A model generated the notes under the pieces. It was not told where the DNA came from, ran no database searches, and saw only the letters and a program-made list of their open reading frames with translations. DNA of 37,245 nt from a virus: positions 1 through 37,245 of the IMG/VR virus record IMGVR_UViG_3300042568_001536; one strand, 5' to 3'. Of this stretch, positions 4,154 through 25,401 are shown in pieces. Position numbers and translations under genes: made by a program. Numbering within the stretch: the stretch's first letter is position 1; each line of letters opens with the position of its first letter.

Positions 4154-5506
4154 ATGCTGACCTTTAAGCAATTCAAAATGCTCCAAGAAGCCCTTAGGAA
4201 TGACCAAAAGGCCGACGTAAATGCCTGGAGGAAGGGAAATAATGAGTTTAGTGACAAGCTTTTTGGCGGCCCCGATACGGATAAAGAAACCCACCAACGG
4301 CGATACTTTGACTTTGACTCAACCGCCCATGCGGATTCCCCGGCGAAGGAAGCGATAGAAGGACACCTTTCAAAGCACGGATATAAGGTTCACGACTACA
4401 AGGCAGGTTTAGCAAAGGATAAGCACGGACGAGACGTGCGGATTGGTAAGGCTCTCGGTCAGACTAAGGCTGAGCCAAACCTTGTAAAGAAGTTCGCTGA
4501 GGATCCTGTTCGTGCTCAGAAAAACAAACAAAACCTCAGAGTCCTCATTTCCAGACACCCACATGATGTCGCAGGAATGACGAGCTGTGGACACTCTTGG
4601 GAAAACAGCTCGTGTATGAACTTTGAGAGTGGTAAAAACAGGCATAATCTTCAACAAGACCTAAAGCACGGCACGCACGTTGCCTATCTTGTTCATGCTG
4701 ATGACCAGGGGCATCCTCAAAAGCCACTTGCTCGGATTGCTATAAAAAAACACAGTGATGAGAACCAAAACTCTATCTTGGTCCCTGAGCCAAGTATATA
4801 TGGTGATGCACCAAAAGGATTCGAAGATCAGGTCAAGCACATTCTCGATACCCATCATAATCATCATCAGCCGATGGGGGCTTATCATAAGAATGAAAAT
4901 ATTTACGATGATGGCTCGGGGCGTACAGTTGCTCACGTTAGGTCCCATGAAATTGGTGCTGCCCTTGGTCATCATTCGATAGATGTTAGAGTTGCCGCAA
5001 TTTCCCACCCAAATGCTACACACGAGCACATTACTAAAGCGCTTGCTGATGGAAATCCCCTCGTAAGGGTCAATGCAATTCGTCATCCAAATGCTACACA
5101 CGAGCACATTACTAAAGCGCTTGCTGATGCACAGCCGCCGGTAAGAGATGCCGCAATTTCCCACCCAAATGCTACATACGAGCACATTACTAAAGCGCTT
5201 GCGGATGGAAGTGCGCCAATCAGGGGGAGCGCCGTTTCACATCCAAATGCTACACACGAGCACATTACTAAAGCGCTTGCTGATGAAGATTACTATGTAA
5301 GGGCTAAAGCCGTTTCACATCCAAATGCTACACACGAGCACATTACTAAAGCGCTTGCTGATGAAGACGATTATGTAAGGGCTAAAGCCGTTTCACATCC
5401 AAATGCTACACACGAGCACATTACTAAAGCGCTTGCTGATAAAAAAACATATGTCCGTAAGGCTGCGCTTTCCGCAATGACGAAAAGACAAGTCAACCCC
5501 GAATAG
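4154..5506 (+). CDS. putative internal head protein with solenoid repeats
   Basis: 450 residues. The start MLTFKQFKMLQEALRND resembles the capsid-targeting peptide of T4 internal proteins, with a possible prohead-protease cut at LQE|A. The middle (about 130-255) has LISRHPHDVAGMTSCGHSW and SSCMNFESGKNRHNL, then VAYLVHADDQGHPQKPLARI; I have seen this pattern in other large phages but know no function. Residues 285-440 hold six near-identical 26-residue units (HPNATHEHITKALAD...VR.A), resembling variant leucine-rich/HEAT-like solenoids, preceded by one degenerate unit. No ribosome site is present; a late promoter lies directly in front. Likely a packaged, injected protein that binds a partner through the solenoid. 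Confidence 0.7.
   Translation: MLTFKQFKMLQEALRNDQKADVNAWRKGNNEFSDKLFGGPDTDKETHQRRYFDFDSTAHADSPAKEAIEGHLSKHGYKVHDYKAGLAKDKHGRDVRIGKALGQTKAEPNLVKKFAEDPVRAQKNKQNLRVLISRHPHDVAGMTSCGHSWENSSCMNFESGKNRHNLQQDLKHGTHVAYLVHADDQGHPQKPLARIAIKKHSDENQNSILVPEPSIYGDAPKGFEDQVKHILDTHHNHHQPMGAYHKNENIYDDGSGRTVAHVRSHEIGAALGHHSIDVRVAAISHPNATHEHITKALADGNPLVRVNAIRHPNATHEHITKALADAQPPVRDAAISHPNATYEHITKALADGSAPIRGSAVSHPNATHEHITKALADEDYYVRAKAVSHPNATHEHITKALADEDDYVRAKAVSHPNATHEHITKALADKKTYVRKAALSAMTKRQVNPE
5006..5473 (+). repeat. six 78-bp in-frame tandem repeats
   Basis: Units start at 5006, 5084, 5162, 5240, 5318 and 5396. The first 45 bases of each are nearly identical (AAATGCTACACACGAGCACA and the following codons), while the second half varies. 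This encodes the HPNATHEHITKALAD solenoid units. Identity at the DNA level implies recent duplication or gene conversion. Confidence 0.9.
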
Positions 5507-5519
5507 TAACTCTCAAAAG

Positions 5520-5554
5520 GGTAATGCTCTAAGTACTGCCTACCCTGATAAAAC
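5520..5554 (+). promoter_or_regulatory. putative middle promoter (GGTAATGCTC-N19-TAAAAC)
   Basis: Box at 5520-5529 and -10 element at 5549-5554 (TAAAACT, the weakest of the nine). The predicted start is about 5561, exactly where a long base-paired region begins. Confidence 0.6.
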
Positions 5555-5560
5555 TATAGT

Positions 5561-5825
5561 GGGCGCTATGGTGTAAGATCGTAGCTTAAAGGGTTCGGCG
5601 GCTTGCGTGTTGGTGCTTCTTCTTGAACACCGTTTAGGTTTGCAGGTCCCATTGTCGGTTTTCGTGCCTTTAAGTGGAGAAACGATTGAAATAAATAGCA
5701 CAGCAACTGGTTTTGTTGTGACGCTTAGAGAGCAAGAGAGGCGGTCTCGCGGCCGTTAAGAGGACTCTAAGAGGTCACGTGGCAGGTGTCGGTGGACGAA
5801 TCGGGAATCCGACTAGCGCCCTCTT
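5561..5825 (+). ncRNA. candidate structured RNA, about 265 nt
   Basis: No ORF fits here. The 5' end GGGCGCTA (5561-5568) pairs perfectly with TAGCGCCC (5814-5821). Inside, CTTAAAGG (5585-5592) pairs with CCTTTAAG (5667-5674), and GTGAC plus TTAGAG (5718-5730) pair with CTCTAA plus GTCAC (5765-5778); GTCGG/CCGAC forms a last hairpin. The 3' end is CCCTCTTTAATTTG. Transcription is expected to begin at 5561 from the middle-type promoter; an AATAAATA late-like box at 5690 could give a shorter form. It has no tRNA T-loop, and I do not recognise tmRNA, RNase P, 6S or SRP motifs. Confidence 0.5.
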
Positions 5826-5846
5826 TAATTTGTAAAAGGTCCTTTG

Positions 5847-6098
5847 ATGAGCAAACAATTAACCATTCAGCAAATCGAGGACGGACTCCAGGAAGGGATC
5901 TCTAAGATGGAAGAGCTCTTTCCGTTTGGGATTACCCTTTCCATTATCGGGATAGACGAGAGGGGATTAGGCTATAACTTCGTCCTATCTGACTCGGAGC
6001 CAGAGGCTCTTATTGAGTGTATTAAGAACGCTTACAGCGCAAAACGCCCCGTGAAGAAGGCTTCCGCTAAAAAGAAAGCTCCAAGTAAAAAGAAGTAA
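5847..6098 (+). CDS. small hypothetical protein with lysine-rich tail
   Basis: 83 residues starting MSKQLTIQQIEDGLQ, with AAAAGG 7 nt upstream. Residues 1-60 form an alpha/beta fold-like stretch (SKMEELFPFGITLSIIGIDE), and the last 20 are Lys/Ala/Pro-rich (KKASAKKKAPSKKK), suggesting nucleic-acid binding or an unstructured basic tail. It lies just after the structured RNA and convergent with the metalloprotease gene. No family recognised. Confidence 0.65.
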   Translation: MSKQLTIQQIEDGLQEGISKMEELFPFGITLSIIGIDERGLGYNFVLSDSEPEALIECIKNAYSAKRPVKKASAKKKAPSKKK

Positions 6099-6102
6099 TT
6101 CC

Positions 6103-7365
6103 CTATTTGAACCGTATCCGAGCCCGAGCGGTGATTGTGGTTTCGGTTGCGACATGAGCGGCTATTGTAAAGACGCCCTTACTTTTAACTGGGATTACGA
6201 TAGACCCACGAGAAGAAGTTACCTTTGATGCCGTTTTCCCATTTACGGCGTATCTCACTAAGACCCCATCCAAAAGCGTCCCCCGAGTTGAGCGAAGGGT
6301 AAGGATAAAGCTCTTTTTCCCCCTATTCACGCTAAGCTTTGCACCAGAGAGAAGGGGAGTCATTGAGTCTCTCCCCAAGCACTCCCCAAAGTAGCTTAGG
6401 TGGCTTTCAATCTGTCCTAGGCTTAAAGGGCTAAAGCCTGATTGGTTAGTCCCAATGGACGGGTACATGAGCGTATCGGGGTTATAGAAGTCGTGAGAGG
6501 CGCCAAGGTTATGTCCAACCTCATGAGCGAATATGGCTCCTGAAAGTGCCCCATAGCTTTGAGTAACGCTGAATGAGTACTCTGGCGCGTAGCAGACAAC
6601 TCCCACATAGGCTATTCCAATGGTGCTTCCGTCCATGTCTTTCCCTGTAAAGAGAGCCTTTAGGTTTGCTTCCCCTTCTGCTGATGGACTCACTCTAAAC
6701 TCATTGAGAAGGGGAGAGGGGGAAGAGTTTAAGAAAGAATCAAGAAGAGAGGTAATGCTTAACACCTTAAACCGAATCCCAAGCTGCCTGTTGTAAATGC
6801 TTTCTGCCACATTGATAGCGCTTGCTACATCAGATGAGGAGTTCCCTCCATGGATACTTTGCCACTCGGGGTCTGTAAAAGCTCTTAACGAAATGACTCG
6901 TACGGTCTCTTTCGCCTGAACATCTGAAAATTCCTTAACAGTTGGTCTGTGTTCCTCTATCCCACTCTCATGAGCTTCAGCGCACGAGGCGGGAGGTAGA
7001 TATGAGCGAGGGATACTTGTAACCTTTACCCTTTTCCCCGTTACCTTAACCGTATAGAGCCTCTGTCTTCTCCCTTCACTCCCTGTGGCCTTCCCAGGGA
7101 AGGTAAGTGTCAAAGTCTCTAAATCCTTTGATGCTGCAAGGGGAAACCTATGAGAGGTGAACCGTACCTGACCTTGGAAGAAGTCTTTAGAAAGATTAAG
7201 CCCAGGGAAGTCTCTTTTTACTGACAAAGAGGCCCTAACGCGCCCGAGCTCTCGTACTCTAAATGTAACGCTCTCACACCGAGCAGAAGAGGTGAGTGTG
7301 AAAAGTAACACAACCACCACTAGTAGCTGCCACCGTCTCACCCATTTTGCAAACGTGAACTGCAT
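6103..7365 (-). CDS. secreted zinc metalloprotease, reprolysin-like
   Basis: 420 residues. I chose the ATG at 7365 because AGAGG lies 6 nt upstream; an N-terminal signal peptide follows (WVRRWQLLVVVVLLFTLTSS, cut near ARC/E). At about residue 280 is HEVGHNLGASHDF, the HExxHxxGxxHD zinc site of metzincins, with the Met-turn at TLMYPS. The preceding DVASAINVAESIYNRQLGI resembles the M12B/reprolysin fold. A C-terminal Ig-like beta segment (about 345-420) follows. It is expected to act outside the cytoplasm. Secreted proteases are unusual in T4-like phages; it may degrade a host surface layer or serve the infected host. Confidence 0.8.
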   Translation of the reverse strand: MQFTFAKWVRRWQLLVVVVLLFTLTSSARCESVTFRVRELGRVRASLSVKRDFPGLNLSKDFFQGQVRFTSHRFPLAASKDLETLTLTFPGKATGSEGRRQRLYTVKVTGKRVKVTSIPRSYLPPASCAEAHESGIEEHRPTVKEFSDVQAKETVRVISLRAFTDPEWQSIHGGNSSSDVASAINVAESIYNRQLGIRFKVLSITSLLDSFLNSSPSPLLNEFRVSPSAEGEANLKALFTGKDMDGSTIGIAYVGVVCYAPEYSFSVTQSYGALSGAIFAHEVGHNLGASHDFYNPDTLMYPSIGTNQSGFSPLSLGQIESHLSYFGECLGRDSMTPLLSGAKLSVNRGKKSFILTLRSTRGTLLDGVLVRYAVNGKTASKVTSSRGSIVIPVKSKGVFTIAAHVATETTITARARIRFK

Positions 7366-7454
7366 TTGACCTCTTACAAGGTCAGACGCCACAGCGTTTG
7401 TTTGGACTACTCCCTAAACCTAAATAGAACTAGGCAACGAAATATGTGTGAAAC

Positions 7455-8039: not shown

Positions 8040-8046
8040 AAGGGGC

Positions 8047-9062: not shown

Positions 9063-9070
9063 TCTAAATA
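9063..9070 (+). promoter_or_regulatory. late promoter variant TCTAAATA
   Basis: Six nt before the ATG at 9077, the same geometry as the consensus late boxes; predicted leader about 1 nt. Confidence 0.55.
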
Positions 9071-9076: not shown

Positions 9077-9406
9077 ATGAGCAAAAAAGATGCCAGGGAG
9101 ATTATCGCAGAGGCTATTAGGTCATTCGTGACAGAAAGCCAAGATGACCTCTACGCACGGGCGAAGCAGGCGAGAGATTCACTTGAGGCGGACGTCTCTC
9201 GACATAAAGCTGAACTGTCGAAGTTCCCAAAGTTAGAGAACGGACTCACCCCTGACCATGTAAGAAACTCGCCCGACTTCAAAGCTCACAAGCAGAACTT
9301 TGATATCGCCTTTAAGCGCCTCCAGACTTTCAATCAGTCCTTCACCAAGAAGTTTAAGAGTGAGATTCGAGCGGACCGAGACGCGGCGCGCCTTAAAGGG
9401 AAGTAA
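9077..9406 (+). CDS. putative internal head protein
   Basis: 109 residues starting MSKKDAREIIAEAIRSFVTE. This is the tag shared by many proteins in this window, with prohead-protease-type sites IIAE|A and VTE|S. The rest is charged, helical and possibly coiled-coil (LYARAKQARDSLEADVSRH), ending in a basic tail. No ribosome site; a late box lies directly in front. Cargo function unknown. Confidence 0.65.
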   Translation: MSKKDAREIIAEAIRSFVTESQDDLYARAKQARDSLEADVSRHKAELSKFPKLENGLTPDHVRNSPDFKAHKQNFDIAFKRLQTFNQSFTKKFKSEIRADRDAARLKGK

Positions 9407-10307: not shown

Positions 10308-10315
10308 TATAAATA
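10308..10315 (+). promoter_or_regulatory. late promoter TATAAATA
   Basis: Consensus box 7 nt before ATG 10323, in the context TATAAATAGACCTCTATG that is repeated at 14869. Predicted leader 2 nt. Confidence 0.85.
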
Positions 10316-10322: not shown

Positions 10323-11111
10323 ATGAGCAAGAAAACCGAACAAGAGTTAATCGCGGAAGCCATCGACCTCACTGAGACCTCCCTCGTGCGTGAACTAATC
10401 GCCGAAGCTAGAGAGGTTCATCAAGTGTTCATAGACGGGAAGCTTGAAAGCTCACATTCCTCCGAAGAGGATGCAAAGAAACGCCTGAAGCAACTTGATT
10501 TTGATTGGAAGCATCGGACCAAAGAGCCTTTTATGCGCGGTGGAGAGGACAAAAAGCCCACCATTGAAATTAAAAAGAGTCTCAAAGAGGCTATCTCTGA
10601 CGACAAAGCCAAGAAGGCAGAGCGCGTCTTTACAAAGGCGTACCTTGACCTCCAGGATAAGAACCGAGACCTCACCCAAGCTCAAAAGGATGACCCCTAC
10701 ATTAGCCATAAAGAGTTTGACGACCTTGAAGACCAAAAAGACGCTAATGTGGCCAAGGCCGTAAACGTCTACGGTAAAGTCAGAGACTACGCAGCAAAGC
10801 ATAAGCTCCCTGGAAAACTTGGGCACATTACAGGTGAGCCTGAAGGGTTCTCTAAGCGCGTTAGCCGCCCTATGGACTTAGGGTATGAGTTTGGAAAGAA
10901 GATGCTCAAACAGTCCAAAGGTGATGACTTCCATCACACCCGCTACATCGACAAGCTCAACAGCCACTCTGATACCTACCAAGAGCGATCATCAAAAGAA
11001 TCTGACCCTGCCAAAAAGGAGCACTACAAACACCTTTCCTCGCGCCTTCGAGCGTTTGCTCACGGGATGCACAGTGCAAAGGATGACTGGGACAACAATG
11101 GCGGGTTTTAA
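10323..11111 (+). CDS. putative internal head protein (two tags)
   Basis: 262 residues. It starts MSKKTEQELIAEAID and carries a second copy of the tag at residues 24-30 (ELIAEAR). Prohead-protease-type sites are LIAE|A at 12 and 28 and LKE|A at 88, the last in KKSLKEAISDDKAKKAE, which recurs in the next gene. The remainder is highly charged and helical and ends SAKDDWDNNGGF. First gene of a four-gene late unit (10323-12711). It has no ribosome site, unlike the genes behind it. Cargo function unknown. Confidence 0.65.
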   Translation: MSKKTEQELIAEAIDLTETSLVRELIAEAREVHQVFIDGKLESSHSSEEDAKKRLKQLDFDWKHRTKEPFMRGGEDKKPTIEIKKSLKEAISDDKAKKAERVFTKAYLDLQDKNRDLTQAQKDDPYISHKEFDDLEDQKDANVAKAVNVYGKVRDYAAKHKLPGKLGHITGEPEGFSKRVSRPMDLGYEFGKKMLKQSKGDDFHHTRYIDKLNSHSDTYQERSSKESDPAKKEHYKHLSSRLRAFAHGMHSAKDDWDNNGGF

Positions 11112-11123: not shown

Positions 11124-11831
11124 ATGACCAAGAAAACCGAACAAGAGTTAATCGCTGAAGCTATCGACTCTGACCTTCAGGAAAAGATTGGTGACTCAAA
11201 GCTCGCCAAGATAAATCGCATTATTCAAAAAGCGGATAAAAGCATCGCAAAGAGCGACAAGGCCGCCGAGGCCGCAAAGGCTAAGGGCGACAAGGCAGGA
11301 TTTGAAAAGAACGCTAGCAAGTTTGGGCGTCACCACGATCTCCAGACGGTGCTCATGGCAGATAGGGCCGCTGAGGAGAAGGCCGAGTTGGAGGGGATAA
11401 AGGCCAAACATGCAGCCTTACGATACGGCGGTGTGAGTGAGGCTATCTCTGACGACAAGGCCAGGGCTAAGAAAGCGTGGGCTCCTGAGCAGCTTGCATA
11501 TAAGCATGGCATGAAGATTAGCCCCGAGGAGCTTAAGCAGAGAGTAAAGCGCGTTGATGACATTCATCAAAGGTCCGAGAAGAAATATCAGGAATTGATT
11601 GCGGCGCATCAGACAAGAACGAGAGACCTTCCTGCACACCCAGGTGAATGGTCTGAAGAGCAGCGAAGCGCGTACCGAGAAAGTAGCGGACCAGCAGGCA
11701 AAGCTCATAAAACCCACTGGGCATCTCAACGGGTACAGAGCGGACTTAGAAAAGCGGCCTACGAAAGAGGTCTTCTTAAAAAGGACGGTTGGGGTCACTT
11801 CTCTGACTTTCTGGACGATGAGACTAAGTAG
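11124..11831 (+). CDS. putative internal head protein
   Basis: 235 residues starting MTKKTEQELIAEAIDSDLQE, with sites LIAE|A (12) and VSE|A (106). Residues 20-110 (KIGDSKLAKINRIIQKADKS ... YGGVSEAISD) are clearly paralogous to residues 120-210 of the 486-residue protein at 14884. The rest is charged and helical. A weak ribosome site (GAGAT) precedes the ATG, 12 nt after the previous gene, so it is translated from the same late mRNA. Function unknown. Confidence 0.65.
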   Translation: MTKKTEQELIAEAIDSDLQEKIGDSKLAKINRIIQKADKSIAKSDKAAEAAKAKGDKAGFEKNASKFGRHHDLQTVLMADRAAEEKAELEGIKAKHAALRYGGVSEAISDDKARAKKAWAPEQLAYKHGMKISPEELKQRVKRVDDIHQRSEKKYQELIAAHQTRTRDLPAHPGEWSEEQRSAYRESSGPAGKAHKTHWASQRVQSGLRKAAYERGLLKKDGWGHFSDFLDDETK

Positions 11832-11871: not shown

Positions 11872-12114
11872 ATGTCCAAAAAGTCAGAACAGGACCTTAT
11901 TGCTGAGTCAATTGAGACCTACCTTGGAGAGGCTTTACGTGGTCACCCAGAAGGAACCAAGGTGAGAGTGCCGCATAAGGGCAAAATGACATCAGGCAAA
12001 GTTGTCCGATATGACCAAGGCTACCGCCACGGAAGCCCCTTCTACGTTGTGGACGTCGGTGAATACGAGTCTATAAAAGTACCTGAGCATAAAGTAGAGC
12101 GCGAAAAGGAATAG
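11872..12114 (+). CDS. putative internal head protein with SH3-like domain
   Basis: 80 residues from ATG 11872 (AAAGGG upstream; an ATG at 11857 is less likely). The tag KKSEQDLIAESIETYLGEAL has sites LIAE|S and LGE|A. The remaining 60 residues (TKVRVPHKGKMTSGKVVRYD, then FYVVDVGEYESIKVPEHK) look like a small SH3/KOW-like beta barrel of the type found on nucleic-acid-binding proteins. Third gene of the late unit. The partner it would bind after injection is unknown. Confidence 0.6.
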   Translation: MSKKSEQDLIAESIETYLGEALRGHPEGTKVRVPHKGKMTSGKVVRYDQGYRHGSPFYVVDVGEYESIKVPEHKVEREKE

Positions 12115-12117: not shown

Positions 12118-12711
12118 ATGTCCAAAAAGACCACACTATCGCTTACTGAAGATGCAGTTAAGCATCAGTTAAAAATTGCAGCATCAACACTCAAAATGAG
12201 TGACGCCGGAGCATCGCTCCTTGGTGGCATGTCAAAGTCTGAAGCAGCAAAGCTCATCGCCCGACATAAAGGAAGGGAGCACGCGGTAAAGTCTTTGAAA
12301 CAATCCGGGCATACCGACCAAGAGATAGCTAAGCTCTTAGAGGGGAAAAAGACCGAACAAGATATCATCGCCGAATCCATTTCAACTAAGGTTGATAACC
12401 ACGGGTTTGAGATCGATTTAGACCGTGCAATCGGTGACCACGATTCAGAGCGACGCTTCATGGCAGCCCGTCACCCAAAGGCTCAAGACCACCACATTGA
12501 AAAAGGACTTTCCGATGAGGATTGGGTAGTAAGACACGCTGCGGCAAAGAACCCTGTTGCTAAAGACCACCACATTGAGAAGGCTCTCTCAGATAATGAC
12601 TACATGGTCCGTATGGGAGCGGCAGAGAATCCAAGCGCCAAACCATCACACTTAGAAAAAGCTGCTAAGGACCCACACTGGGCAGTTCGAGCGGCAGCTA
12701 GAAGGGATTAG
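12118..12711 (+). CDS. putative internal head protein with solenoid repeats
   Basis: 197 residues; AAAGGA lies in front of the ATG, 3 nt after the previous stop. Residues 1-75 form a helical domain with SKSEAAKLIARHKGREHAVK and TDQEIAKLLE, resembling a helix-turn-helix. An internal tag KKTEQDIIAESIST (78-91) with site IIAE|S divides it from three solenoid units of about 26 residues (HPKAQDHHIEKGLSDEDWVV and following). If the site is cut, two cargo pieces result. Related repeats occur at 4154-5506 and 24649-25401. Confidence 0.65.
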   Translation: MSKKTTLSLTEDAVKHQLKIAASTLKMSDAGASLLGGMSKSEAAKLIARHKGREHAVKSLKQSGHTDQEIAKLLEGKKTEQDIIAESISTKVDNHGFEIDLDRAIGDHDSERRFMAARHPKAQDHHIEKGLSDEDWVVRHAAAKNPVAKDHHIEKALSDNDYMVRMGAAENPSAKPSHLEKAAKDPHWAVRAAARRD

Positions 12712-13239: not shown

Positions 13240-13560
13240 ATGAGCAAGAAGACCGAACAAGACATTATCACGGAAGAGATTGATGCTCATCTCATTGAGC
13301 AAAAGACTCCTATGGACCTTGTTCATAGGGGTAGCTCAGTGGATGTTGAGACTAAAGGGAAACTTCTTGGTTCATACACTCAGTTAAACGGCAAATTTCA
13401 CTCTTCCGTGACAGATGATGACATTAGTGTTCATAAAGGGAGTTACGACACAGAAGACGAGGCATTGGCCGCTATCAGGTTTCACCACCGAATAGGTGCG
13501 GCTAAAATCACCCGCCATCAAAATCGAGTATTGCCCCACGCACAAGCAATCAAGCCTTAA
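13240..13560 (+). CDS. putative internal head protein
   Basis: 106 residues starting MSKKTEQDIITEEIDAHLIE. The rest (DLVHRGSSVDVETKGKLLGS ... YDTEDEALAAIRFHHR) is a small alpha/beta domain also found at residues 20-95 of the protein at 14884 and in the protein at 23775; shared features are a Gly-rich strand and DEA.AA...FH. No ribosome site; a late box lies directly in front. Function of the domain unknown. Confidence 0.65.
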   Translation: MSKKTEQDIITEEIDAHLIEQKTPMDLVHRGSSVDVETKGKLLGSYTQLNGKFHSSVTDDDISVHKGSYDTEDEALAAIRFHHRIGAAKITRHQNRVLPHAQAIKP

Positions 13561-14883: not shown

Positions 14884-16344
14884 ATGGCAAAGCAGACACT
14901 CGCAGAGGGCATCAATCAGATCAAAGCTCACGGCAATCGTACCATTCTCATGAAGGGGAAAGAGGCCGGGGACCTTGTAGGACACGTTGACGTCATCCCA
15001 CGAGTGGATGTCACCACCATGGCCGACAAGGGAGAGGGCCACCATGCCTACGCCGTCTCTAAGCGAAAAGGCAAACATGGCATCTCACACTATGTTACCC
15101 GTCGCCTGGGCGAATTTAACACACATGACGAGGCCGTAGCGGCTGTTAAGAAGTTTCACAAGATTGAAGAGGGCGTTTCTGTGCCTACGAAGAAGAGCGA
15201 AGGTGACATTATCACTGAAGCTATCGATACTCACCTTCAAGAGCAGATCGGTGACTCAAAGATCACCAAGTTAAACCGAATCATGCAAAAGACCATGAGA
15301 AACAGCATGAAAAACATGCTCAAGGGCGGTCGCGCAAAGGAAGCGGGTAATGAGGAAGAGTTTGATAAGCAATTCAAAAAATTCAAACATAACCTCAGTC
15401 GTTATGCCTCAGTTAGACCTCACCAGGACGCAGAGGAGAAAGCCCAAGACCAGATCGAAAAGGCCAAGCGGGCTGCAAGCCAATACGGCGGCCTGAGTGA
15501 GGCTGCGGAATCCGAGCATGAGCCTTTTCCGTCTAAGGATTTCAAAAAGGTAAAGCTTGGCACTAAGGGTAAGCACACCCTCTCTCACGTGACCCGGCTT
15601 AAGGATAACCACTCCTTCTATCACCTCTCGGACGATTGGAGATCGGACTATCCCGTCCATTACTCCCACACTGACCGAGTCGGATTTGATAACCCCGAGT
15701 TCTTTCCCAAGAAGGTTGTCTCGTGGGCATCTGACCTTGTGAAAAAGCACGCTAAGGGTACCGTCTCCGAAGGTACCGAGTCCCTCATCGAGGAAAACTA
15801 CAAAGCACGGCTTAAAAAGTTAGGCTTTTCGGAACAGATCCCAGCCCAGACAAAAGATGGACTTAGTGGCGTGTACCGATTTGACCATCCCGATTATGAA
15901 ATTGAGGCCAGACCCAAAGCCGATCCAGGCAAAGATTTCAAATACACCATCAAGGATAAGCGCACTGGACGGCGTCACGTTTCTCAACACCTCACGCGAG
16001 TTGAGAAGTTCCTAACCGATAAGGGCGCTCTTAAAGAAGCCTGGTACGGAAACTCCTCTTTTCTCTCACACCCCTCTTATACGACGGGGAAATCAATAGG
16101 TACGGCTGACCCAGGTTCGGCAAGCGGCCTTAGGGATAAGCTCTACAGCGTCCATCAGCGACACAGTGAGATAGCCGATTCACTCGGTCGGGAAATGGAC
16201 AAGCTCGATGGCGCAAAGCCAGGGACGCCCGAGTACACACGATACCATGAGCTTGGGGATAAGAGGTCCCGTCATGCACGCCTCTCCAATAGGGCCTATG
16301 CCGCATTTCGCGGCATCTCCACTGGGCAGAGAGCTAAGAAGTAA
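14884..16344 (+). CDS. putative internal head polyprotein
   Basis: 486 residues with prohead-protease-type sites at regular spacing: LAE|G (8), ITE|A (112, within the tag KKSEGDIITEAID), LSE|A (206), VSE|G (296) and LKE|A (385). Cutting at all would give pieces of about 104, 94, 90, 89 and 101 residues. Piece 1 is related to the proteins at 13240 and 23775; piece 2 is related to residues 20-106 of the protein at 11124; pieces 3-5 are unrecognised, charged small domains. No ribosome site; a late box lies directly in front. I interpret it as a fused set of internal head proteins matured inside the capsid. Confidence 0.65.
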   Translation: MAKQTLAEGINQIKAHGNRTILMKGKEAGDLVGHVDVIPRVDVTTMADKGEGHHAYAVSKRKGKHGISHYVTRRLGEFNTHDEAVAAVKKFHKIEEGVSVPTKKSEGDIITEAIDTHLQEQIGDSKITKLNRIMQKTMRNSMKNMLKGGRAKEAGNEEEFDKQFKKFKHNLSRYASVRPHQDAEEKAQDQIEKAKRAASQYGGLSEAAESEHEPFPSKDFKKVKLGTKGKHTLSHVTRLKDNHSFYHLSDDWRSDYPVHYSHTDRVGFDNPEFFPKKVVSWASDLVKKHAKGTVSEGTESLIEENYKARLKKLGFSEQIPAQTKDGLSGVYRFDHPDYEIEARPKADPGKDFKYTIKDKRTGRRHVSQHLTRVEKFLTDKGALKEAWYGNSSFLSHPSYTTGKSIGTADPGSASGLRDKLYSVHQRHSEIADSLGREMDKLDGAKPGTPEYTRYHELGDKRSRHARLSNRAYAAFRGISTGQRAKK

Positions 16345-18644: not shown

Positions 18645-19100
18645 ATGGGAAAAGACCATGACCTATTAGCGGAAGCCATATCGACGTTTACAGAGGCTAC
18701 CTCTCCCAAATCCCGCTTTGAGCTTGTCCCATACGACTCGCTTAAGTACCGCGATGACGAGGATGACTACCTGTATCACGCAACAAGTGAACCGGCGGCA
18801 AAGGCCATAGTGCAACATGGGCTAAAGCCGGGCGGAACTGGCACAAAGTCCATGTTTACTGCTGGGGCGTATCCGGCTCATTCCAAGGGAAGAGCATTTC
18901 TCTCTAGTCGCTCCTCGGCGAAGGCCTGGGCCGATAAGGTCGAAGACCACCTGTTTCACTCTCACGATGACCCTCCACCGGTAGCAGTGGTGAGGATTCA
19001 CAAAAGCCACGTTCCGGATATTGAAAAAGACGAAGAGGGGTCCAAGGACGTAGGGCATAGCTTCTTTGTAAAGAGGCACGTACCCGCTCGGGAAGATTAG
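18645..19100 (+). CDS. putative packaged ADP-ribosyltransferase-like protein
   Basis: 151 residues. The tag DHDLLAEAISTFTEA has sites LLAE|A and FTE|A. The body has YLYHATSEPAAKAIVQHGLKP (H45), then KGRAFLSSRSSAKAWADKV, the layout of KptA/PARP-like ADP-ribosyltransferase folds: a Tyr/His start strand, the helix before GL.P, and a later strand with FLS. I do not see a clear final catalytic Glu/Tyr, so activity is open. No ribosome site; late box directly in front. If packaged it would reach the host with the DNA, as T4 Alt does. Confidence 0.55.
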   Translation: MGKDHDLLAEAISTFTEATSPKSRFELVPYDSLKYRDDEDDYLYHATSEPAAKAIVQHGLKPGGTGTKSMFTAGAYPAHSKGRAFLSSRSSAKAWADKVEDHLFHSHDDPPPVAVVRIHKSHVPDIEKDEEGSKDVGHSFFVKRHVPARED

Positions 19101-19143: not shown

Positions 19144-19752
19144 ATGTCAGACTTGGTAAAAAGAGCCCGTCAGTTTGCTATCGAGCGTCACGGGGAACAA
19201 AAGAGAAAGTACACCGGGGAACCCTACTGGCATCACCTACGGGACGTTGCTGCAATGTCCATGGCGGATACTCCACAGGAAACTGAGCACGCCAAGGCCG
19301 TAGCATGGCTCCATGATACCTTAGAAGACACCCCTACGACCTATGATGAGATTCATCATCATTTCGGGAAGCGAGTTGCGGACGATGTTGAAACCTTAAC
19401 GGACAGGGGTAAGCCTGGGGTAGATGGAAATAGGGCAACGCGGAAAGCCGCCTATAATGACAAGATAAAGTCTGGGAGTCACATCGCTCATACAGTGAAA
19501 GCTGCGGACCTTATCTCGAACAGTCATTCTATTGCAAAGCACGACCCTAAGTTCTCTAAGACGTATTTCAAAGAGAAAGGGGAGACGTTGCAAATTCTTG
19601 ATAAAGCTCATCCAAAGCTTTTAGGCGCAGCTAAGAATCTTTTAAATAAGATAAACGCTCGCTCGGGCAATGTTAACGAGAGCCTCACCATAGACAGCGT
19701 GTCGGAACAGGACATCATCGCTGAAGGCATCGGGATATATTTCCCCAAATAA
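19144..19752 (+). CDS. SpoT/MESH1-type HD hydrolase with C-terminal tag
   Basis: 202 residues. H31 in WHHLRDVAAM, H57-D58 in AWLHDTLEDTPTTYDEI and D122 in VKAADLISNS reproduce the metal and catalytic ladder of ppGpp hydrolases (HP/HxxxVA, HDxxED, ADxxxN). Full-length MESH1-type enzymes are about 180 residues, so the domain is complete. The final 16 residues, SEQDIIAEGIGIYFPK, are the capsid tag of the other cargo proteins, here placed at the C-terminus with site IIAE|G. It probably hydrolyses (p)ppGpp or a related nucleotide, relieving the stringent response at infection. Confidence 0.75.
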   Translation: MSDLVKRARQFAIERHGEQKRKYTGEPYWHHLRDVAAMSMADTPQETEHAKAVAWLHDTLEDTPTTYDEIHHHFGKRVADDVETLTDRGKPGVDGNRATRKAAYNDKIKSGSHIAHTVKAADLISNSHSIAKHDPKFSKTYFKEKGETLQILDKAHPKLLGAAKNLLNKINARSGNVNESLTIDSVSEQDIIAEGIGIYFPK

Positions 19753-20364: not shown

Positions 20365-20883
20365 GTGGCTAAGAAGAGAACCGAAACTGACATTATCGCC
20401 GAGGCGATCCGGTCATTCCTTAACGAAAAGGAGTACCGAGGGGAGCATACCGCACCTGACTCTACCGATGGCTCACCCCTGCACGATGTTACGGCTAAGG
20501 GCACATACCCGGATGATTTCTACTCCCATAAAGGCTTTAGGTACTATTCAGATTACGGAAATGGGTATGACTCAAAGTCTCATTTTAAAGTGACTACTAT
20601 GAGACATAAGCCAGACGACAAGGTGTGGATTCACCGGGCTATCCCGACAGACGTCTATAAAAACGCTTTCAAGGAAGCTAAGAAGAGCGGCAAGTCTCCC
20701 CTCCATCACATGATTCAAAAGGGAGATTGGGTCACTATTTCGAAAGAGTACGCACACGACCATGGGGAAGGCGCTCTAAACGGAGATTACAAAGTCGCCA
20801 GTATGAGAGTTCCAGCGAAGCACGTTTTCACGAACGGGGACTCCATTCACGAGTGGGGGTATGACCCAAAGGATGAGGACTGA
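20365..20883 (+). CDS. putative packaged ADP-ribosyltransferase
   Basis: 172 residues from GTG. The tag KKRTETDIIAEAIRSFLNE has site IIAE|A. The enzyme part has R91 (VWIHRAIP), an STS-like strand with S126 (KGDWVTISKEYAHDHG) and E163 in NGDSIHEWGYDP. This R-S-E arrangement, with GDWVT.S.EYA..HG and NGDSI.EWGYD, is familiar from phage-associated ADP-ribosyltransferase domains. It would modify host proteins or RNA on injection, like T4 Alt. No ribosome site; late promoter directly in front. The next gene follows after 5 nt. Confidence 0.7.
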   Translation: MAKKRTETDIIAEAIRSFLNEKEYRGEHTAPDSTDGSPLHDVTAKGTYPDDFYSHKGFRYYSDYGNGYDSKSHFKVTTMRHKPDDKVWIHRAIPTDVYKNAFKEAKKSGKSPLHHMIQKGDWVTISKEYAHDHGEGALNGDYKVASMRVPAKHVFTNGDSIHEWGYDPKDED

Positions 20884-22055: not shown

Positions 22056-22131
22056 AATATGCGCAAACGCCGTTGATTTCAAATGTTGGGGTGCCCTACC
22101 ATAGGTCTACCGGCTCATTTAAGGGGGAAAT

Positions 22132-22572
22132 ATGAAAAAGCTCACTACTCTTGCCACAATCCTTTTCTGCGTCATAGGGGCTCCCGTAGCTCAGTCGGAG
22201 GGCATCCCTCCTGGGTGCTACATCACGGATTCGGAAAGGAATTTATTTGGGCAGACTTTTGGTTACGTTCCGAGGTGCTTTGTCGCATCGGACAACTATT
22301 ACAACTGGTTTACTCACAACCAATATGGCCGAACCGAGATGAGCGTTTTCTATGGTCCAGCCGTCGAAGCCATCCTTTACGCAGATTACCAAGACCTTAA
22401 TGCCTGTATGGGGGCTCATAACTCCCTCCTGGCAGATCACCAAGCTTTAACCGGTAACTATAACGCAGCAACTGCTAACCTTAACGCAGCAACTGCGGAC
22501 AACAAGGCCCGTATTACCTTGGAGAAAAAGCTCCGAAAGGCGTGTGGGTCGAAATGCAAGCGGATCAAGTAG
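22132..22572 (+). CDS. small exported protein
   Basis: 146 residues; AAGGGGGAAAT precedes the ATG. The N-terminus MKKLTTLATILFCVIGAPVA followed by QS/EG is a Sec signal peptide. The mature part has four or more cysteines (GCYITD, CFVAS, CMGAH, CGSKC), suggesting disulphides in the periplasm or outside. Residues 105-130 contain the repeat LNAATA and look coiled-coil. It may act on the host envelope. No family recognised. Confidence 0.7.
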   Translation: MKKLTTLATILFCVIGAPVAQSEGIPPGCYITDSERNLFGQTFGYVPRCFVASDNYYNWFTHNQYGRTEMSVFYGPAVEAILYADYQDLNACMGAHNSLLADHQALTGNYNAATANLNAATADNKARITLEKKLRKACGSKCKRIK

Positions 22573-22597
22573 CTAAAATGGGTCGTCTTCGACGGGA

Positions 22598-22605
22598 GAT
22601 AAATA
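22598..22605 (+). promoter_or_regulatory. late promoter variant GATAAATA
   Basis: Nine nt before ATG 22615; predicted leader 4 nt. Confidence 0.65.
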
Positions 22606-22614
22606 CCTCCCGTC

Positions 22615-23058
22615 ATGAAGACCTTCTTACAATTCATAGTTGAGCGCCTTGGGCTGCCTGAGAAGCTCCCAAGCGGTACCGTTCTCCACATGCAGGAGAT
22701 TGACCACCCATCTGACCGAGGCAGAAAAGCCCATATGGTAGTAGCCTACCATCCCGACGCCTCAACCGACGACACAAGCTATGCCAGGAGTGAGATTGTA
22801 AAACATGCTAAGGAGCACCCAGCGGGAATGGGGCCTCAGCATGGGATAGGATTTGCAATATTTCACAAGGACCCTAGGGGAAAGGGTTTCCGGGCACATA
22901 AGCTTCATACTGACTATGGGTGGCAGCGAAGAGGGGTCGCCACGGCAATGTATGACCATGCCCGAGAGAAGGGGCTAGCGATTAAACCATCAAGTGACCA
23001 AAGCGAGAAGGGAAAGCTTTTCTGGAAAGGATATAAGAAGCACCTAAAGGCTAACTAG
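22615..23058 (+). CDS. putative packaged GNAT-like acetyltransferase
   Basis: 147 residues. The first ten, MKTFLQFIVE, closely resemble the classical T4 capsid-targeting peptide, with a cut site IVE|R. The C-terminal half has YGWQRRGVATAMYDHAREKG (Q104-A109), which matches the acetyl-CoA pyrophosphate loop (Q/RxxGxG/A) of GNAT enzymes, followed by a C-terminal strand/helix region (SDQSEKGKLFWKGY). It lacks a recognisable substrate motif. It would be carried in the capsid and acetylate a host or phage target. Confidence 0.65.
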   Translation: MKTFLQFIVERLGLPEKLPSGTVLHMQEIDHPSDRGRKAHMVVAYHPDASTDDTSYARSEIVKHAKEHPAGMGPQHGIGFAIFHKDPRGKGFRAHKLHTDYGWQRRGVATAMYDHAREKGLAIKPSSDQSEKGKLFWKGYKKHLKAN

Positions 23059-23258
23059 AGAGATTGCCTGTCCGACTCATAGCACAGGTCTTCAAAGGTA
23101 TTGGCATCGATCCCTGTCGTCTTAAAAAAGAAGGCTTGGGTGTCTTCGTAGTTAAAGCCCATAGACCGTAGCTGGTCGACTACCTTGGAAAACATTACCA
23201 GGTCGCTGGTTTGAATTGACTTTTGGGCTGCTTCTTTCAACGTGAGTCGGTTAGTCAT
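23055..23258 (-). CDS. small hypothetical protein
   Basis: 67 residues from the ATG at 23258, chosen because GGAGG is 6 nt upstream. Helical (LTLKEAAQKSIQTSDLVMFS, VVDQLRSMGFNYEDTQAFFF), similar in style to small helical adaptors. Last gene of the three-gene - strand operon 23673-23055, convergent with the GNAT-like gene (4-nt overlap). No family recognised. Confidence 0.65.
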   Translation of the reverse strand: MTNRLTLKEAAQKSIQTSDLVMFSKVVDQLRSMGFNYEDTQAFFFKTTGIDANTFEDLCYESDRQSL

Positions 23259-23273
23259 ATTCATCCTCCGTGT

Positions 23274-23480
23274 CTAGTTAGACAAGATTGACTGGTACCT
23301 GGGCCGCAAGCTTGAAACCTTAAATTCTATATAATCTCGCTTAGCTCCTTTGTAGTCCTCATCCTCTTGAAAGGTTTTCAGCCACTGAGCTTCGGTCTCT
23401 GGAGAAACGTCGCGAATGTGCTCCCATAGCCCTGAAATACGTTTTAGGCCCCAGAGGGACTTAGGCTTTTTATGCGTCAT
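23274..23480 (-). CDS. small hypothetical protein
   Basis: 68 residues starting MTHKKPKSLWGLKRISGLWE; GGAGG is 9 nt upstream. Basic N-terminus, then an acidic centre (FQEDEDYKGAKRD). The start overlaps the end of the upstream gene, so translation is coupled. No family recognised. Confidence 0.65.
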   Translation of the reverse strand: MTHKKPKSLWGLKRISGLWEHIRDVSPETEAQWLKTFQEDEDYKGAKRDYIEFKVSSLRPRYQSILSN

Positions 23481-23673
23481 AAGACCGAGCCTCCTTCACA
23501 AACCTCTCAGACTGTATAGCTCCACCACCTTGGACTGTAATCTCGACGTCCAGGCGCTCCGGGCGAAGTCCGGTCTGCTGGCAATAGAGCTTTGCCTCTC
23601 GTTTGGAGGTAAAAGTCTGGGTTGTCTCTTGGCCGTCTGATGTAATAGTTTTGATGGTATATTTTCGTCTCAT
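23470..23673 (-). CDS. small hypothetical protein
   Basis: 67 residues from the ATG at 23673: MRRKYTIKTITSDGQETTQT, beta-rich then a helix (SKREAKLYCQQTGLRPE). There is no ribosome site in front, consistent with a very short or absent leader; the early-type motif ends 12 nt upstream. First gene of a three-gene operon. Confidence 0.6.
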   Translation of the reverse strand: MRRKYTIKTITSDGQETTQTFTSKREAKLYCQQTGLRPERLDVEITVQGGGAIQSERFVKEARSYDA

Positions 23674-23685
23674 ACTAAGACCATC

Positions 23686-23699
23686 GTCCGCCTTCAAAC
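23686..23699 (-). promoter_or_regulatory. early-type motif GTTTGAAGGCGGAC
   Basis: 12 nt upstream of the first ATG of the operon 23673-23055. TAGTAT 12 nt further on overlaps the start codon, so the real -10 position here is unclear. Confidence 0.5.
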
Positions 23700-23759
23700 G
23701 TCACTTTAGCGTTCCAATGAAAAATACGCAAATTGCGCACGAAATTTATCTTTTATTAA

Positions 23760-23767
23760 GATAAATA
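23760..23767 (+). promoter_or_regulatory. late promoter variant GATAAATA
   Basis: Seven nt before ATG 23775; predicted leader 2 nt. Confidence 0.7.
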
Positions 23768-23774
23768 CCTGGCT

Positions 23775-24068
23775 ATGGCCGCTCAGACAGACAAGGTTAT
23801 CATCGCAAATACCGATTACGAATTAGGGCCGGAGACTGCCCACGGTAGACAGGTTCATTACAGAGGGAAGCAGGTAGGATCAATTTTCTACATTACCTCC
23901 GCTGAAACTGGCGAGCATGTTCGCTTCCTAGCTCTGGTTCAGATTTACAAAACCAGCTCACAATTTATCACCAGATGCCTAGGTGAATTTCTGACATTAG
24001 ATGGGGCTCTTGCTGATATTACAGCTACTCATTTCAACGAATCGAAAAAAGAACCTTTGAGAGGGTAA
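23775..24068 (+). CDS. small late protein, paralogue of cargo domain
   Basis: 97 residues. It lacks a clear capsid tag, but the body (VHYRGKQVGSIFYITSAETG ... RCLGEFLTLDGALADITATH) matches the small domain in the proteins at 13240 and 14884 (R.LGEF.T.DEA.A). No ribosome site; late box directly in front. Perhaps a cytoplasmic or tag-less form of the packaged domain. Function unknown. Confidence 0.6.
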   Translation: MAAQTDKVIIANTDYELGPETAHGRQVHYRGKQVGSIFYITSAETGEHVRFLALVQIYKTSSQFITRCLGEFLTLDGALADITATHFNESKKEPLRG

Positions 24069-24098
24069 TGCTCGCCGCATCACTCACTCTAGTACCGT
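24064..24098 (+). promoter_or_regulatory. putative middle promoter (GGTAATGCTC-N19-TACCGT)
   Basis: Box at 24064-24073, TACCGT at 24093-24098; predicted start about 24105, where a structured region without an ORF begins. Confidence 0.6.
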
Positions 24099-24104
24099 AG
24101 GATA

Positions 24105-24196
24105 ATGGGTGTCGGGGCAGGGAGGTAGCCAGCCCTCAATAAGCCGACCAGCGCGACCGCAGTAGTACCCGTGAGTGCTTGAGCTAAGCCTTTTTT
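24105..24196 (+). ncRNA. candidate structured small RNA
   Basis: From the predicted start, GGGT pairs with ACCC near 24170, enclosing GTCGG/CCGAC with an inner AGGG/CCCT stem, and a GCG/CGC hairpin. A weak stem GCTT/AAGC then runs into six T residues (24191-24196), which could end transcription. No ORF fits. The fold is a by-eye proposal. Confidence 0.35.
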
Positions 24197-24212
24197 CCCG
24201 GAAAGGTTTCAT

Positions 24213-24289
24213 TGGGCGCTTGTTGGGGAGTGGACCTAATGGCTCTTAAGGCTCCTCGCGTCGAATCCGTTCGAGTCGGATGCGCCCGC
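24213..24289 (+). ncRNA. tRNA-like element (degenerate)
   Basis: GGGCGC (24214-24219) and GCGCCC (24282-24287) can form an acceptor-like stem 74 nt apart. In front of the 3' strand is a perfect T-arm, ATCCG-TTCGAGT-CGGAT. I could not fold convincing D and anticodon arms (CTCTTAA would give anticodon CTT but lacks a flanking stem), and no CCA is encoded. It could be a decayed tRNA or a tRNA mimic. Confidence 0.3.
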
Positions 24290-24373
24290 TTTGTTTACTC
24301 TAGTCAGATGCACGAGGCATGAGTGAGATCAAAGGTTATATCCATCATTACACACCCGATAAGGACACTTCAC

Positions 24374-24571
24374 ATGGCCTACGTAGAACGTCAGGCGAGA
24401 AGGGTCTTGGGACTTCCCCGAAAGTACACCGAATGGGACCTGCACGTGGCGTACCGGGCACTTGTGTCAAAACATCATCCTAATCTTGGAGGTAACCGGC
24501 TGGCTTGGGCTACAATTAACGGTGCTTTTGATCTCCTACGAAAACGATTTGATGGTACCACGGGGAATTGA
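24374..24571 (+). CDS. J-domain-like protein with HPN in place of HPD
   Basis: 65 residues from the ATG at 24374 (AAGGA is 9 nt upstream; a GTG at 24323 would add 17 residues). VLGLPRKYTEWDLHVAYRAL and VSKHHPNLGGNRLAWATING form helices II-III of a J domain, closely similar to residues 33-80 of the protein at 24649. The invariant HPD tripeptide is HPN (35-37). HPD is needed to stimulate Hsp70, so this copy may compete with working J proteins. It carries no capsid tag. Confidence 0.65.
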   Translation: MAYVERQARRVLGLPRKYTEWDLHVAYRALVSKHHPNLGGNRLAWATINGAFDLLRKRFDGTTGN

Positions 24572-24594
24572 TCCGGGGAGCGAGGCGGCACTTC

Positions 24595-24602
24595 TATAAA
24601 TA
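24595..24602 (+). promoter_or_regulatory. late promoter TATAAATA
   Basis: Consensus box 46 nt before ATG 24649; here the leader would be about 40 nt. Confidence 0.7.
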
Positions 24603-24648
24603 GACTCGTTACGACCAGAAAGGTCTCTCTATTGAACGCTACTCGCAT

Positions 24649-25401
24649 ATGTCCAAGAAGACGCTTCAAGATTTAATACAAGAGCAAATAGATAAGGATT
24701 TCCGTTCCCTCGTTGAGAGTATGAGCCACGATGAGGCAAGGTCTGTCCTTGGTCTGGAACCTGATCACTCCGAGGATGAATTGAAGACTGCCTTCCGGGC
24801 AGCATCAAAACGACATCATCCTGACCTAGGTGGAAGTCCTGAAGCAATGAAGCATGTAAATGCTGCGTATGAGAAATTAAAGGGAGCCGGTGGGCATTTC
24901 CATGCTGACCAAGGAGGAGACCCAATCTTCAACAAACTCAGGCATCCTGATTCTGACGTAAGAGCAAATGCAATTCAGCATCCTAACGTGCAGCATCATC
25001 ATATCGACCATGCTTTGAATGATAATGACTACTGGGTAAGGTTAAAGGCCGTCTCTCATCCTAATGCTCAACCTCATCACATCGACAAAGCCCTTGATGA
25101 TAAAGACTCAATGGTAGCAAATGCCGCTATGGAGCATCCAAACGCAACCCATGACAATATCTCTAAGGGGCTTCGTCATGAGGACGAGTCCGTAAGAGAG
25201 GACGCAATTCGACATCCTAACTCCCACGAAGGGCACATTGACCAGGCGCTTAACGATGACAGTAGCTTCGTGAGGTTCGCGGCAATGGAGCATCCCAAGG
25301 TTCACATTGGACACATCGAAAAAGGCCTTCACGATGAGGACGAAGATGTACGAAAGCTTGCAATCGACCACCTTCGGCGGCGCGGTGCTTTCAAAGCCTA
25401 A
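24649..25401 (+). CDS. putative packaged J-domain/solenoid protein
   Basis: 250 residues. A tag-like start (KKTLQDLIQEQIDKDFRSLV) is followed by a J domain at 26-80 with intact HPD (57-59, ASKRHHPDLGG) and then six or so solenoid units of about 25 residues (HPNVQHHHIDHALNDNDYWV and following), related to those at 4154 and 12118. The J domain should recruit and activate host DnaK and the solenoid should bind a client. The tag lacks the usual AE|A site (IQE|Q), so packaging is less sure than for the others. Confidence 0.7.
   Translation: MSKKTLQDLIQEQIDKDFRSLVESMSHDEARSVLGLEPDHSEDELKTAFRAASKRHHPDLGGSPEAMKHVNAAYEKLKGAGGHFHADQGGDPIFNKLRHPDSDVRANAIQHPNVQHHHIDHALNDNDYWVRLKAVSHPNAQPHHIDKALDDKDSMVANAAMEHPNATHDNISKGLRHEDESVREDAIRHPNSHEGHIDQALNDDSSFVRFAAMEHPKVHIGHIEKGLHDEDEDVRKLAIDHLRRRGAFKA

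Follow-up and report, generated by a model that had tools for sequence, protein, structure and literature searches.

Why do about a dozen neighbouring viral proteins with dissimilar bodies carry variants of one short peptide? The question is raised by the IMG/VR fragment IMGVR_UViG_3300042568_001536 (37,245 nt, hereafter the window). A sequence-only reading had interpreted 13 proteins encoded between positions 4,154 and 25,401 as injected internal head proteins sharing a cleavable capsid tag, and all 13 were present where it had placed them; we refer to each by its start position. Our analysis makes it likely that the tagged proteins are cargo carried inside the head of an uncultured T4-like phage, with a short leader cut by the prohead protease gp21. 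A leader of the form KKTEQ[DE][IL]IAE↓A (KK tag; ↓, predicted cut), a putative second class beside the T4-type M(K/L)TFxxFIxE↓, would recruit the protein to the prohead core; gp21 would cut after (I/L)xE, and the freed body would stay in the head with the DNA and probably be delivered to the host. The tag would be a module separable from its cargo and, judging from its anatomy, would also work C-terminally (19144) and between domains (12118 and 14884). Visible in the sequence are the tags, their apparent exchange between related proteins, gp21 and a matching gp23 site in the same genome, a scarcity of gp21 sites in the cargo bodies, and a fusion junction in 14884; from these we infer packaging, cleavage, and injection.

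The window matched a longer record of 145,388 bases (G001) at 100% identity on the opposite strand (window position p corresponds to G001 position 64356 - p). Using 31 T4 proteins from the 60–109 kb region as queries, we found that G001 is T4-like, with gp2, gp3, gp4, gp5, gp6, gp12–gp15, gp17–gp21, gp23, and gp53; gp21 was also detected by profile (PF03420, 2.9e-35). The head genes gp20, gp21, and gp23, identified by T4 similarity, thus occur in one genome with a matching gp23 site: ..SKFITE↓DAA of G001 gp23 aligns with the cleaved ..GSFLTE↓AEI of T4 gp23, and the G001 protease should therefore share the (I/L)xE habit of gp21. T4 gp22 as a query gave no match in G001; the position and composition of a 434-residue open reading frame (ORF) beside gp23 suggest that it is gp22-like. 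In T4 and cyanophage syn9, gp16 (small terminase) lies immediately downstream of gp15. The gap between gp15 and gp17 in G001 is some 37 kb long and holds all 11 KK tags. The putative cargo genes and their left border are as follows (evidence in parentheses; ART, ADP-ribosyltransferase).

3291..4121, + strand: gp15 (tail sheath stabiliser), which bounds the cargo island on the left (phrog_227, 4.7e-65; T4 and syn9 gene order).
4154..5506, + strand: leader MLTFKQFKMLQE↓A of loose T4 type, HEAT/LRV-type repeats, and a domain common to giant phages (motif, Pfam, similarity).
9077..9406, + strand: N-terminal KK tag; body matching phrog_7560 and a protein of RB43 and relatives (tag motif, PHROG, similarity).
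10323..11111, + strand: N-terminal KK tag with a second site, LIAE↓A; internal LKE↓AISDDKA junction in common with 11124 (tag, repeat family D13).
11124..11831, + strand: KK tag at the N-terminus; homology of the first half with the central part of 14884 (tag score, BLAST).
11872..12114, + strand: small putative cargo protein with N-terminal KK tag; start 11872 preferred to 11857 of the ORF list (tag motif).
12118..12711, + strand: internal KK tag from residue 75, then HEAT-type repeats (Pfam, tag score).
13240..13560, + strand: N-terminal KK tag, ..IITE↓E (tag score).
14884..16344, + strand: candidate cargo polyprotein with internal KK tag (sequence homology, tag score, site list).
18645..19100, + strand: weak N-terminal tag MGKDHDLLAE↓A (tag motif; fails leave-one-out).
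19144..19752, + strand: HD_4 (RelA/SpoT-type phosphohydrolase-like) protein with C-terminal KK tag (Pfam, tag score).
20365..20883, + strand: N-terminal KK tag, ART-like predicted fold, relatives with T4-type leaders (tag, similarity, structure model).
22615..23058, + strand: T4-type leader MKTFLQFIVE↓R; sub-threshold GNAT match (motif, Pfam).
24649..25401, + strand: N-terminal KK tag, J domain with HPD, HEAT-type repeats (Pfam, alignment).

The KKTEQDIIAEAI-type KK tag was present on 11 proteins. It was N-terminal in eight (9077, 10323, 11124, 11872, 13240, 20365, 24649, and, in a short and weak form, 18645), internal in 12118 and 14884 (in the latter from residue 101), and C-terminal in 19144 (from residue 183); the earlier description is thus corrected in that the tag does not always stand at the start of the protein. 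A short N-terminal leader ending in (L/I)xE was found in the first seven of these proteins and 22615, and by motif in 18645 and 4154. The first site was followed by A, S, or G in nine of the 11 tags (the exceptions were E in 13240 and Q in 24649), in agreement with the (I/L)xE ending previously noted for most of them, and eight of the 11 proteins had a second [ILV]xE within about 20 residues. A scoring matrix built from the 11 window tags was applied to 982 ORFs of G001; the members scored 31–54.7 bits, the best other ORF scored 6.9 bits, and the shuffled maximum was 4.7 bits. In a leave-one-out analysis, nine tags scored 25.6–50 bits and 19144 scored 11.1 bits against 5.8–8.7 bits for the best non-members. 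Ten of the 11 tags thus outscored every non-member ORF; of the 11 proteins previously named as tag carriers, only 18645 dropped out.

The common tag could be a mere trace of the recent duplication of one gene start, with no function of its own, as 10323 and 11124 might suggest: they are 93% identical over 46 nt spanning the tag (repeat family D3), and 11124 and 14884 have a longer block in common. The other D3 tag copies, however, have diverged by 20–39% in DNA with the peptide retained; most bodies are dissimilar beyond the tag, apart from repeats and the 11124/14884 block; and the tags occupy N-terminal, middle, and C-terminal positions. In addition, two KK-tagged proteins occur in G002, a 26-kb fragment whose gp15 is 67% identical to that of G001. 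We therefore regard a duplication trace as very unlikely. The two G002 proteins (24931, whose likely start is the second methionine, and 25314) are encoded after gp15, as are proteins with LLCE↓E and LLLE↓G and one with a T4-like MITFLEYIQLFE↓S. We met the KK-tag class otherwise in G002 only: strict patterns run over viral contigs matched only G001 and G002, or G001 alone, and a pattern run over 15 records matched G001 alone. These patterns recovered only two or three of the 11 G001 tags, and the scans therefore say little about how widespread the class is.

By eye, KTEQDIIAE↓A of the KK tag overlays KTYQEFIAE↓A of T4. The window-tag matrix, which is blind to T4, ranked ipIII first (8.8 bits) and ipII second (5.6 bits) among 121 ORFs of the T4 60–109 kb region, with a thin margin for ipII because gp7 followed at 5.3 bits. 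The available part of one source describes the T4 capsid targeting sequence (CTS), gives (I/L)xE as the gp21 motif, and makes targeting dependent on CTS residues 4 and 7 (PMC9026906). Of the two proteins said to begin like the T4 peptide, 22615 clearly does so and 4154 only loosely. Further T4-type leaders occur in G001 outside the window, at 24747+, 115931+, 80199-, and 23892-, with doubtful cases at 116375+ (58 residues) and 93338- (FISQ, no Glu); the T4-type leaders of G001 retain F/Y at the targeting positions. A strict DNA pattern for such leaders, run over 15 records, matched three times each in G001 and T4, four and three times in two IMG/VR contigs, twice in Vibrio phage R11Z, and once each in two other records, with no match in eight of the 15; the reversed control gave none in any record. 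CTS-like leaders behind late promoters were found at none of 252 starts in 85 loci; without the promoter condition, 22 matches were obtained in 18 of the 85 loci against 3.5 expected. Two other T4-like viruses encode pairs of paralogous proteins of LYH/LFH type (possibly ARTs) directly after gp15 (L007 3910 and 4837; L008 10765 and 11724), with leaders of which MTSFKQFLEE↓GRDAPL is an example; cargo loci may often have gp15 as a border.

The strongest evidence for the capsid-targeting reading is the apparent exchange of tags between related cargo proteins. The body of 20365 is 61% identical to a relative in contig L144, which is encoded beside a gp3-like match and has the leader MLTFKQFMSE↓NSDYRGEH, and a more distant relative in R11Z (Schizotequatrovirus) has the leader MKTYTEFLSE↓YHMQHRAP. 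Relatives in mycobacteriophage Colt and ct2t2046 have other N-termini. Among the best 80 of 102 viral loci (L181 excluded), we found 15 distinct non-self relatives that were shorter than 260 residues and whose leader did not exceed about 30, and in nine of them a strict [IL]xE lay no more than about six residues from the domain, a count with no chance rate behind it; many other relatives in the same 80 loci hold the domain deeper inside longer proteins. The J domains of G001 gave a similar picture. The KK-tagged 24649 and 23892-, with the leader MLTFDEFLLE↓, have J domains that share 52.5% identity over 59 residues, and the J domain of 24649 is also related to that of 80199-, with the leader MKTFQEYLNE↓; three paralogues in one genome thus have three different leaders.

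If the cargo were exposed to gp21, its bodies should avoid the gp21 motif. With leaders and tags removed and expectations taken from shuffles, 12 cargo bodies (the 13 minus 14884; 2,121 residues) contained two [IL]xE against 11.7 expected (P 0.0002). When the first 11 residues of 12118, MSKKTTLSLTE↓D, which resemble a worn tag, were kept as body, the count for the 12 proteins was three against 11.8 (P 0.0018). Control motifs in the same 12 bodies were not reduced ([IL]xD, 27 vs 16.9; reversed motif, 21 vs 11.6; [AVFMYW]xE, 30 vs 29.1). Neither 17 hand-picked untagged ORFs of the window (47 [IL]xE vs 40.2 expected) nor 125 further ORFs from a greedy set of 137 in G001 (353 vs 329) were depleted, and none of 223 random 12-ORF sets with a like expectation (from 200,000 draws) was as low, the lowest ratio being 0.55. 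The three T4 internal proteins (IPs) had no site against 2.7 expected (P 0.057), compared with 45 against 34.5 in 17 hand-picked other T4 proteins, and five G002 cargo proteins had one against 4.1 (P 0.069).

Both results bear on the possibility that the tag serves as a helix that docks elsewhere in the virion (neck, tail tube, or baseplate) or on an assembly chaperone, with (I/L)xE incidental. The island adjoins the neck genes gp13–gp15, and most KK tags do not retain the T4 targeting residue at position 4, as a docking helix would allow; that related cargo has T4-type leaders at the same place, and that the bodies are poor in the gp21 motif, make such a helix unlikely in our view. The capsid-targeting reading is thus preferred, and the proposal of a modular cargo system with a common address label gains support from tag exchange, from gp21 with the gp23 site, and from site scarcity.

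Several observations weigh against this reading. First, most KK tags have, by eye, E at the position of T4 Tyr4 and I/L at that of Phe7, and the Glu in place of Tyr4 suggests that the KK tag is not simply equivalent to the T4 CTS; T4 ipI scores -9.8 with the window-tag matrix. T4 CTSs are N-terminal, whereas the tags of 12118, 14884, and 19144 begin at residues 75, 101, and 183, and the tag of 18645 fails leave-one-out with 1.9 bits against 7.1 bits for the best non-member. Second, among the short-leader relatives of 20365, those in L144 and L191 have only MSE, that in L151 only WLE, and those in L145, L146, and L210 no site, and the RB43 relative of 9077 starts MLTFEQY with no (I/L)xE thereafter. 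Third, the site count was in part post hoc: 14884 was set aside, and the first 11 residues of 12118 were moved to the leader, after a first body count of eight against 14.5 expected (P 0.04). With 14884 included, the scarcity weakens to seven against 14.3 (P 0.023), and with the 12118 residues also kept as body it stands at eight against 14.4 for the 13 proteins (P 0.038); the count of [IL]xS likewise falls somewhat below expectation (9 vs 16.4 over the 13 proteins). Six further G001 proteins with T4-type leaders were only weakly depleted (5 vs 7.4, P 0.22), and no scarcity was seen for 17 CTS-like proteins from other viruses (20 sites vs 20.8 expected), a set composed of the 22 matches minus seven judged spurious by eye plus L144 and L196, several of them of one MKSFxQF family.

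The exceptional protein, 14884, has [ILV]xE sites after residues 8, 77, 96, 112, 120, 206, 296, 303, 304, and 385, among them LSE↓A, LIE↓E, and LKE↓A. Its residues 14–94 are 54% identical to a stand-alone G002 protein of 132 residues, and the match extends to the penultimate residue of the G002 protein and, in 14884, stops two residues short of the predicted cut after E96. Next come the KK tag and a segment with homology to the N-terminal half of 11124 (43% over 110 residues, 2e-22), and this second match fades just past YGG[VL]SE↓A. With a stand-alone counterpart on one side and a tagged 11124-like block on the other, 14884 appears to be a fusion of two formerly separate cargo genes, joined at a cleavage site so that the second tag became internal, and it is probably a cargo polyprotein cut by gp21. 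The E↓AISDDKA junction of 10323 and 11124 is likewise 96% identical between the two over 25 nt. An AlphaFold model of 14884 alone had a predicted local distance difference test (pLDDT) score of 47.8 and informed no domain border except that of a C-terminal helical stretch; the borders therefore rest on homology. As a query, 14884 matched only its own contig; it had two sub-threshold Pfam matches and none in PHROGs. A proposed correspondence of its fourth stretch with G002 24931 (KARLK.LGF in both) was dropped, as BLAST gave no match.

In 12118 and 14884, an inter-domain tag would allow gp21 to turn one translation product into several cargo proteins. The internal and C-terminal tags may instead be fossils of gene fusion, with 14884, 12118, and 19144 packaged uncut or not at all, and we give this appreciable, if clearly minority, weight: 14884 looks like a G002-type stand-alone protein fused to an 11124-type tagged protein, in keeping with such an origin, as is the N-terminal position of T4 CTSs. 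The internal tags, however, have IITE↓A and IIAE↓S intact, 14884 has further sites (LSE↓A, LIE↓E, and LKE↓A) where the other bodies have few, and C-terminal processing exists in T4 Alt according to the part of the literature available. A fuller version of the preferred reading, to which we assign slightly less than an even chance, is a two-label cargo system, in which inter-domain tags let a polyprotein be packaged whole and be cut into effectors by the head protease inside the head, a C-terminal tag works equally, site avoidance serves as a test from sequence, and packaged J proteins recruit DnaK for refolding.

The bodies differ, as had been proposed: the J domain, HD_4, and HEAT repeats pass the Pfam cut-offs, and the GNAT match of 22615, which has one weak relative in the phage collection, falls below. 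In 20365, a structure model with pLDDT 87.7 gave Tpt1/KptA as the best VIA-align rows (Z 5.2, in the grey zone; root mean square deviation 2.8–3.0 Å over 77–80 residues). We take most of the remaining rows (50 others) to be ARTs, in part by title. Foldseek with the model gave nothing at E ≤ 0.001, a PDB sequence search with the family nothing better than E 0.63, and Pfam over its 36 members nothing at E ≤ 0.01. In an alignment of the 36, R91 and T124 are nearly invariant and E163 is invariant; they may be catalytic residues of the R-S/T-E type. The packaging of ARTs in phage heads is supported by the available parts of two sources (PMC9503650; PMC5512222). The HD_4 match of 19144 (2.2e-9) scored 37.7 bits against a cut-off of 27.2, and its phage relatives, up to 44% identical, are annotated as RelA/SpoT-type or metal-dependent phosphohydrolases; delivered early, 19144 could remove alarmones or counter alarmone-based defence. 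The DnaJ domain of 24649 scored 34.5 bits against a cut-off of 27.8, with HPD seen in the alignment. As to roles after entry, one may guess at ADP-ribosylation of RNA or protein, alarmone removal, and recruitment of host DnaK by packaged J proteins to refold cargo threaded through the tail. A fourth J-domain-like protein (24323–24571), just upstream of 24649, has no tag, and HPN replaces HPD. The middle domain of 4154 is common to Atu_ph07, Lu11, HRDY3, and Dickeya JA29. For 18645, no relative was found in the phage collection at E ≤ 1; a stretch with ..LYHAT.. is similar over 26 residues (E 0.002) to a CTS-led protein from a different T4-like virus.

These bodies also bear on whether the tagged proteins build or scaffold the head, as gp67/gp68 do, and are not injected effectors. 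T4 core proteins also have several (I/L)xE sites, and IPIII influences head assembly according to the available part of PMC9026906. By contrast, several of the bodies resemble enzymes or chaperones (HD_4, J domain, ART-like fold), and G001 differs in its cargo set from the known part of G002. A purely structural role is thus improbable, and injected cargo remains the preferred interpretation.

Nearly all of these genes had been placed under late promoters. A late-promoter-like motif was found within 60 nt upstream of ten of the 13 cargo genes; 11124, 11872, and 12118, closely downstream of 10323, had none. The motifs are as follows.

10308..10315, + strand: late-promoter-like TATAAATA, example 15 nt before a cargo start (motif scan).
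4138, 13224, 14869, 20350, and 24595: other exact TATAAATA before cargo starts.
9063, 18631, 19111, and 22598: TATAAATA with one mismatch before cargo starts.

Over the whole window, TATAAATA with at most one mismatch occurred 34 times against 25 expected, and five of 100 shuffles reached 34; as this enrichment is mild, the late-promoter argument rests on position and not on count. A late-promoter-like motif, NATAAATA, lies 10–17 nt (motif start to start codon) before 16 ORFs of G001, in the window at 4138, 10308, 13224, 14869, 18631, 20350, and 22598 and at nine places elsewhere in G001; it also occurs at 9063 and 23760. In a simple four-letter test, a Shine-Dalgarno-like stretch was found for none of the 16 ORFs with a near NATAAATA and for four of 17 at a longer distance. 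T4 late-promoter geometry, which we assume to apply to G001, would give near-leaderless late mRNAs. A 19-bp motif, TGTTTGAAGGCNGACGATA, with at most three mismatches occurred nine times in the window (8942, 9431, 17143, 18377, 23682, 25409, 32216, 36336, and 36368) against 0.03 expected, and 16 of its 25 loose matches in G001 lie 9–45 nt before an ORF of at least 60 amino acids, a count without control; it is a candidate early/middle promoter or operator.

Other genes of the island include an RNA polymerase sigma factor on the opposite strand (32755–33396, -; phrog_1740, 2.4e-25) and, after gp15, a protein with a hydrophobic N-terminus and, by eye, a metzincin-like HExxHxxGxxH motif (6103–7392, -), conserved in L004 (56%) and G002 (43%). 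A second protein with such a motif (by eye) and a hydrophobic N-terminus is encoded between gp20 and gp23 of G001 (L020 13896–14705, -). The protein at 31029–31805 (-) has an N-terminal ALSE↓AA, a late-type promoter 28 nt upstream, and matches to PHROG families of unknown function (best 1.5e-10). It is possibly a further cargo protein, although it was counted as untagged in the site-scarcity control.

Internal proteins of T4 are a known but small set, with three IPs in T4 itself. According to the available part of one study, at least ten internal proteins are reported in T4-related phages, T4 Ip1–3 have anti-restriction roles, and Ip2 and Ip3 block GmrSD restriction (PMC12373910). In titles and abstract starts we met no second CTS class, no internal or C-terminal CTSs, and no cargo polyproteins cut by gp21, which is no proof of absence; these putative features, together with the large gp15–gp17 set, appear to be what G001 adds. 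At least ten cargo proteins with a readable tag, apparently exchangeable with the T4 tag, would make phage-delivered effectors findable from sequence. Internal and C-terminal tags, if true, would widen what T4 heads can load, and a polyprotein cut by gp21 would be a new role for the head protease. Site avoidance, if valid beyond G001 (one test in other viruses was negative), would be a cheap, culture-free test for packaged proteins.

The closest known system is IPI–IPIII of T4 (Tequatrovirus), in which short leaders likewise end in an (I/L)xE site for gp21, the bodies are unrelated, and the gene set varies, and KTxQ[DE]xIAE↓A of the KK tag overlaps MKTYQEFIAE↓A. G001 departs from the T4 IPs in its second tag class, with 11 copies within 17 kb, and in the internal and C-terminal positions, and unlike the T4 ip loci its island sits between gp15 and gp17. 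T4 Alt is a packaged ADP-ribosyltransferase, and 20365, with its ART-like predicted fold, would also be packaged; it differs in having a KK tag and in being much shorter (172 residues), and no Escherichia phage record matched it by tblastn at E ≤ 1. The head ejection proteins of phiKZ and SPN3US resemble the tagged proteins in their propeptides cut by a prohead protease, sometimes at several sites each, as described in the available parts of PMC5694885 and PMC10052503; these are mostly long propeptides with S/A-x-E (phiKZ) or A-x-E (SPN3US) sites, whereas G001 has a short repeated tag with I/L-x-E. Polyvalent proteins and MuF-fused effectors, in the part of Iyer et al. 2017 available (PMC5512222), combine several effector-like domains in one virion-delivered chain, and the 20365 domain likewise occurs within longer proteins in other viruses. 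By contrast, the tagged proteins of G001 mostly have one body each, and in 14884 the cuts would be made in trans, by the head protease and not by an embedded peptidase.

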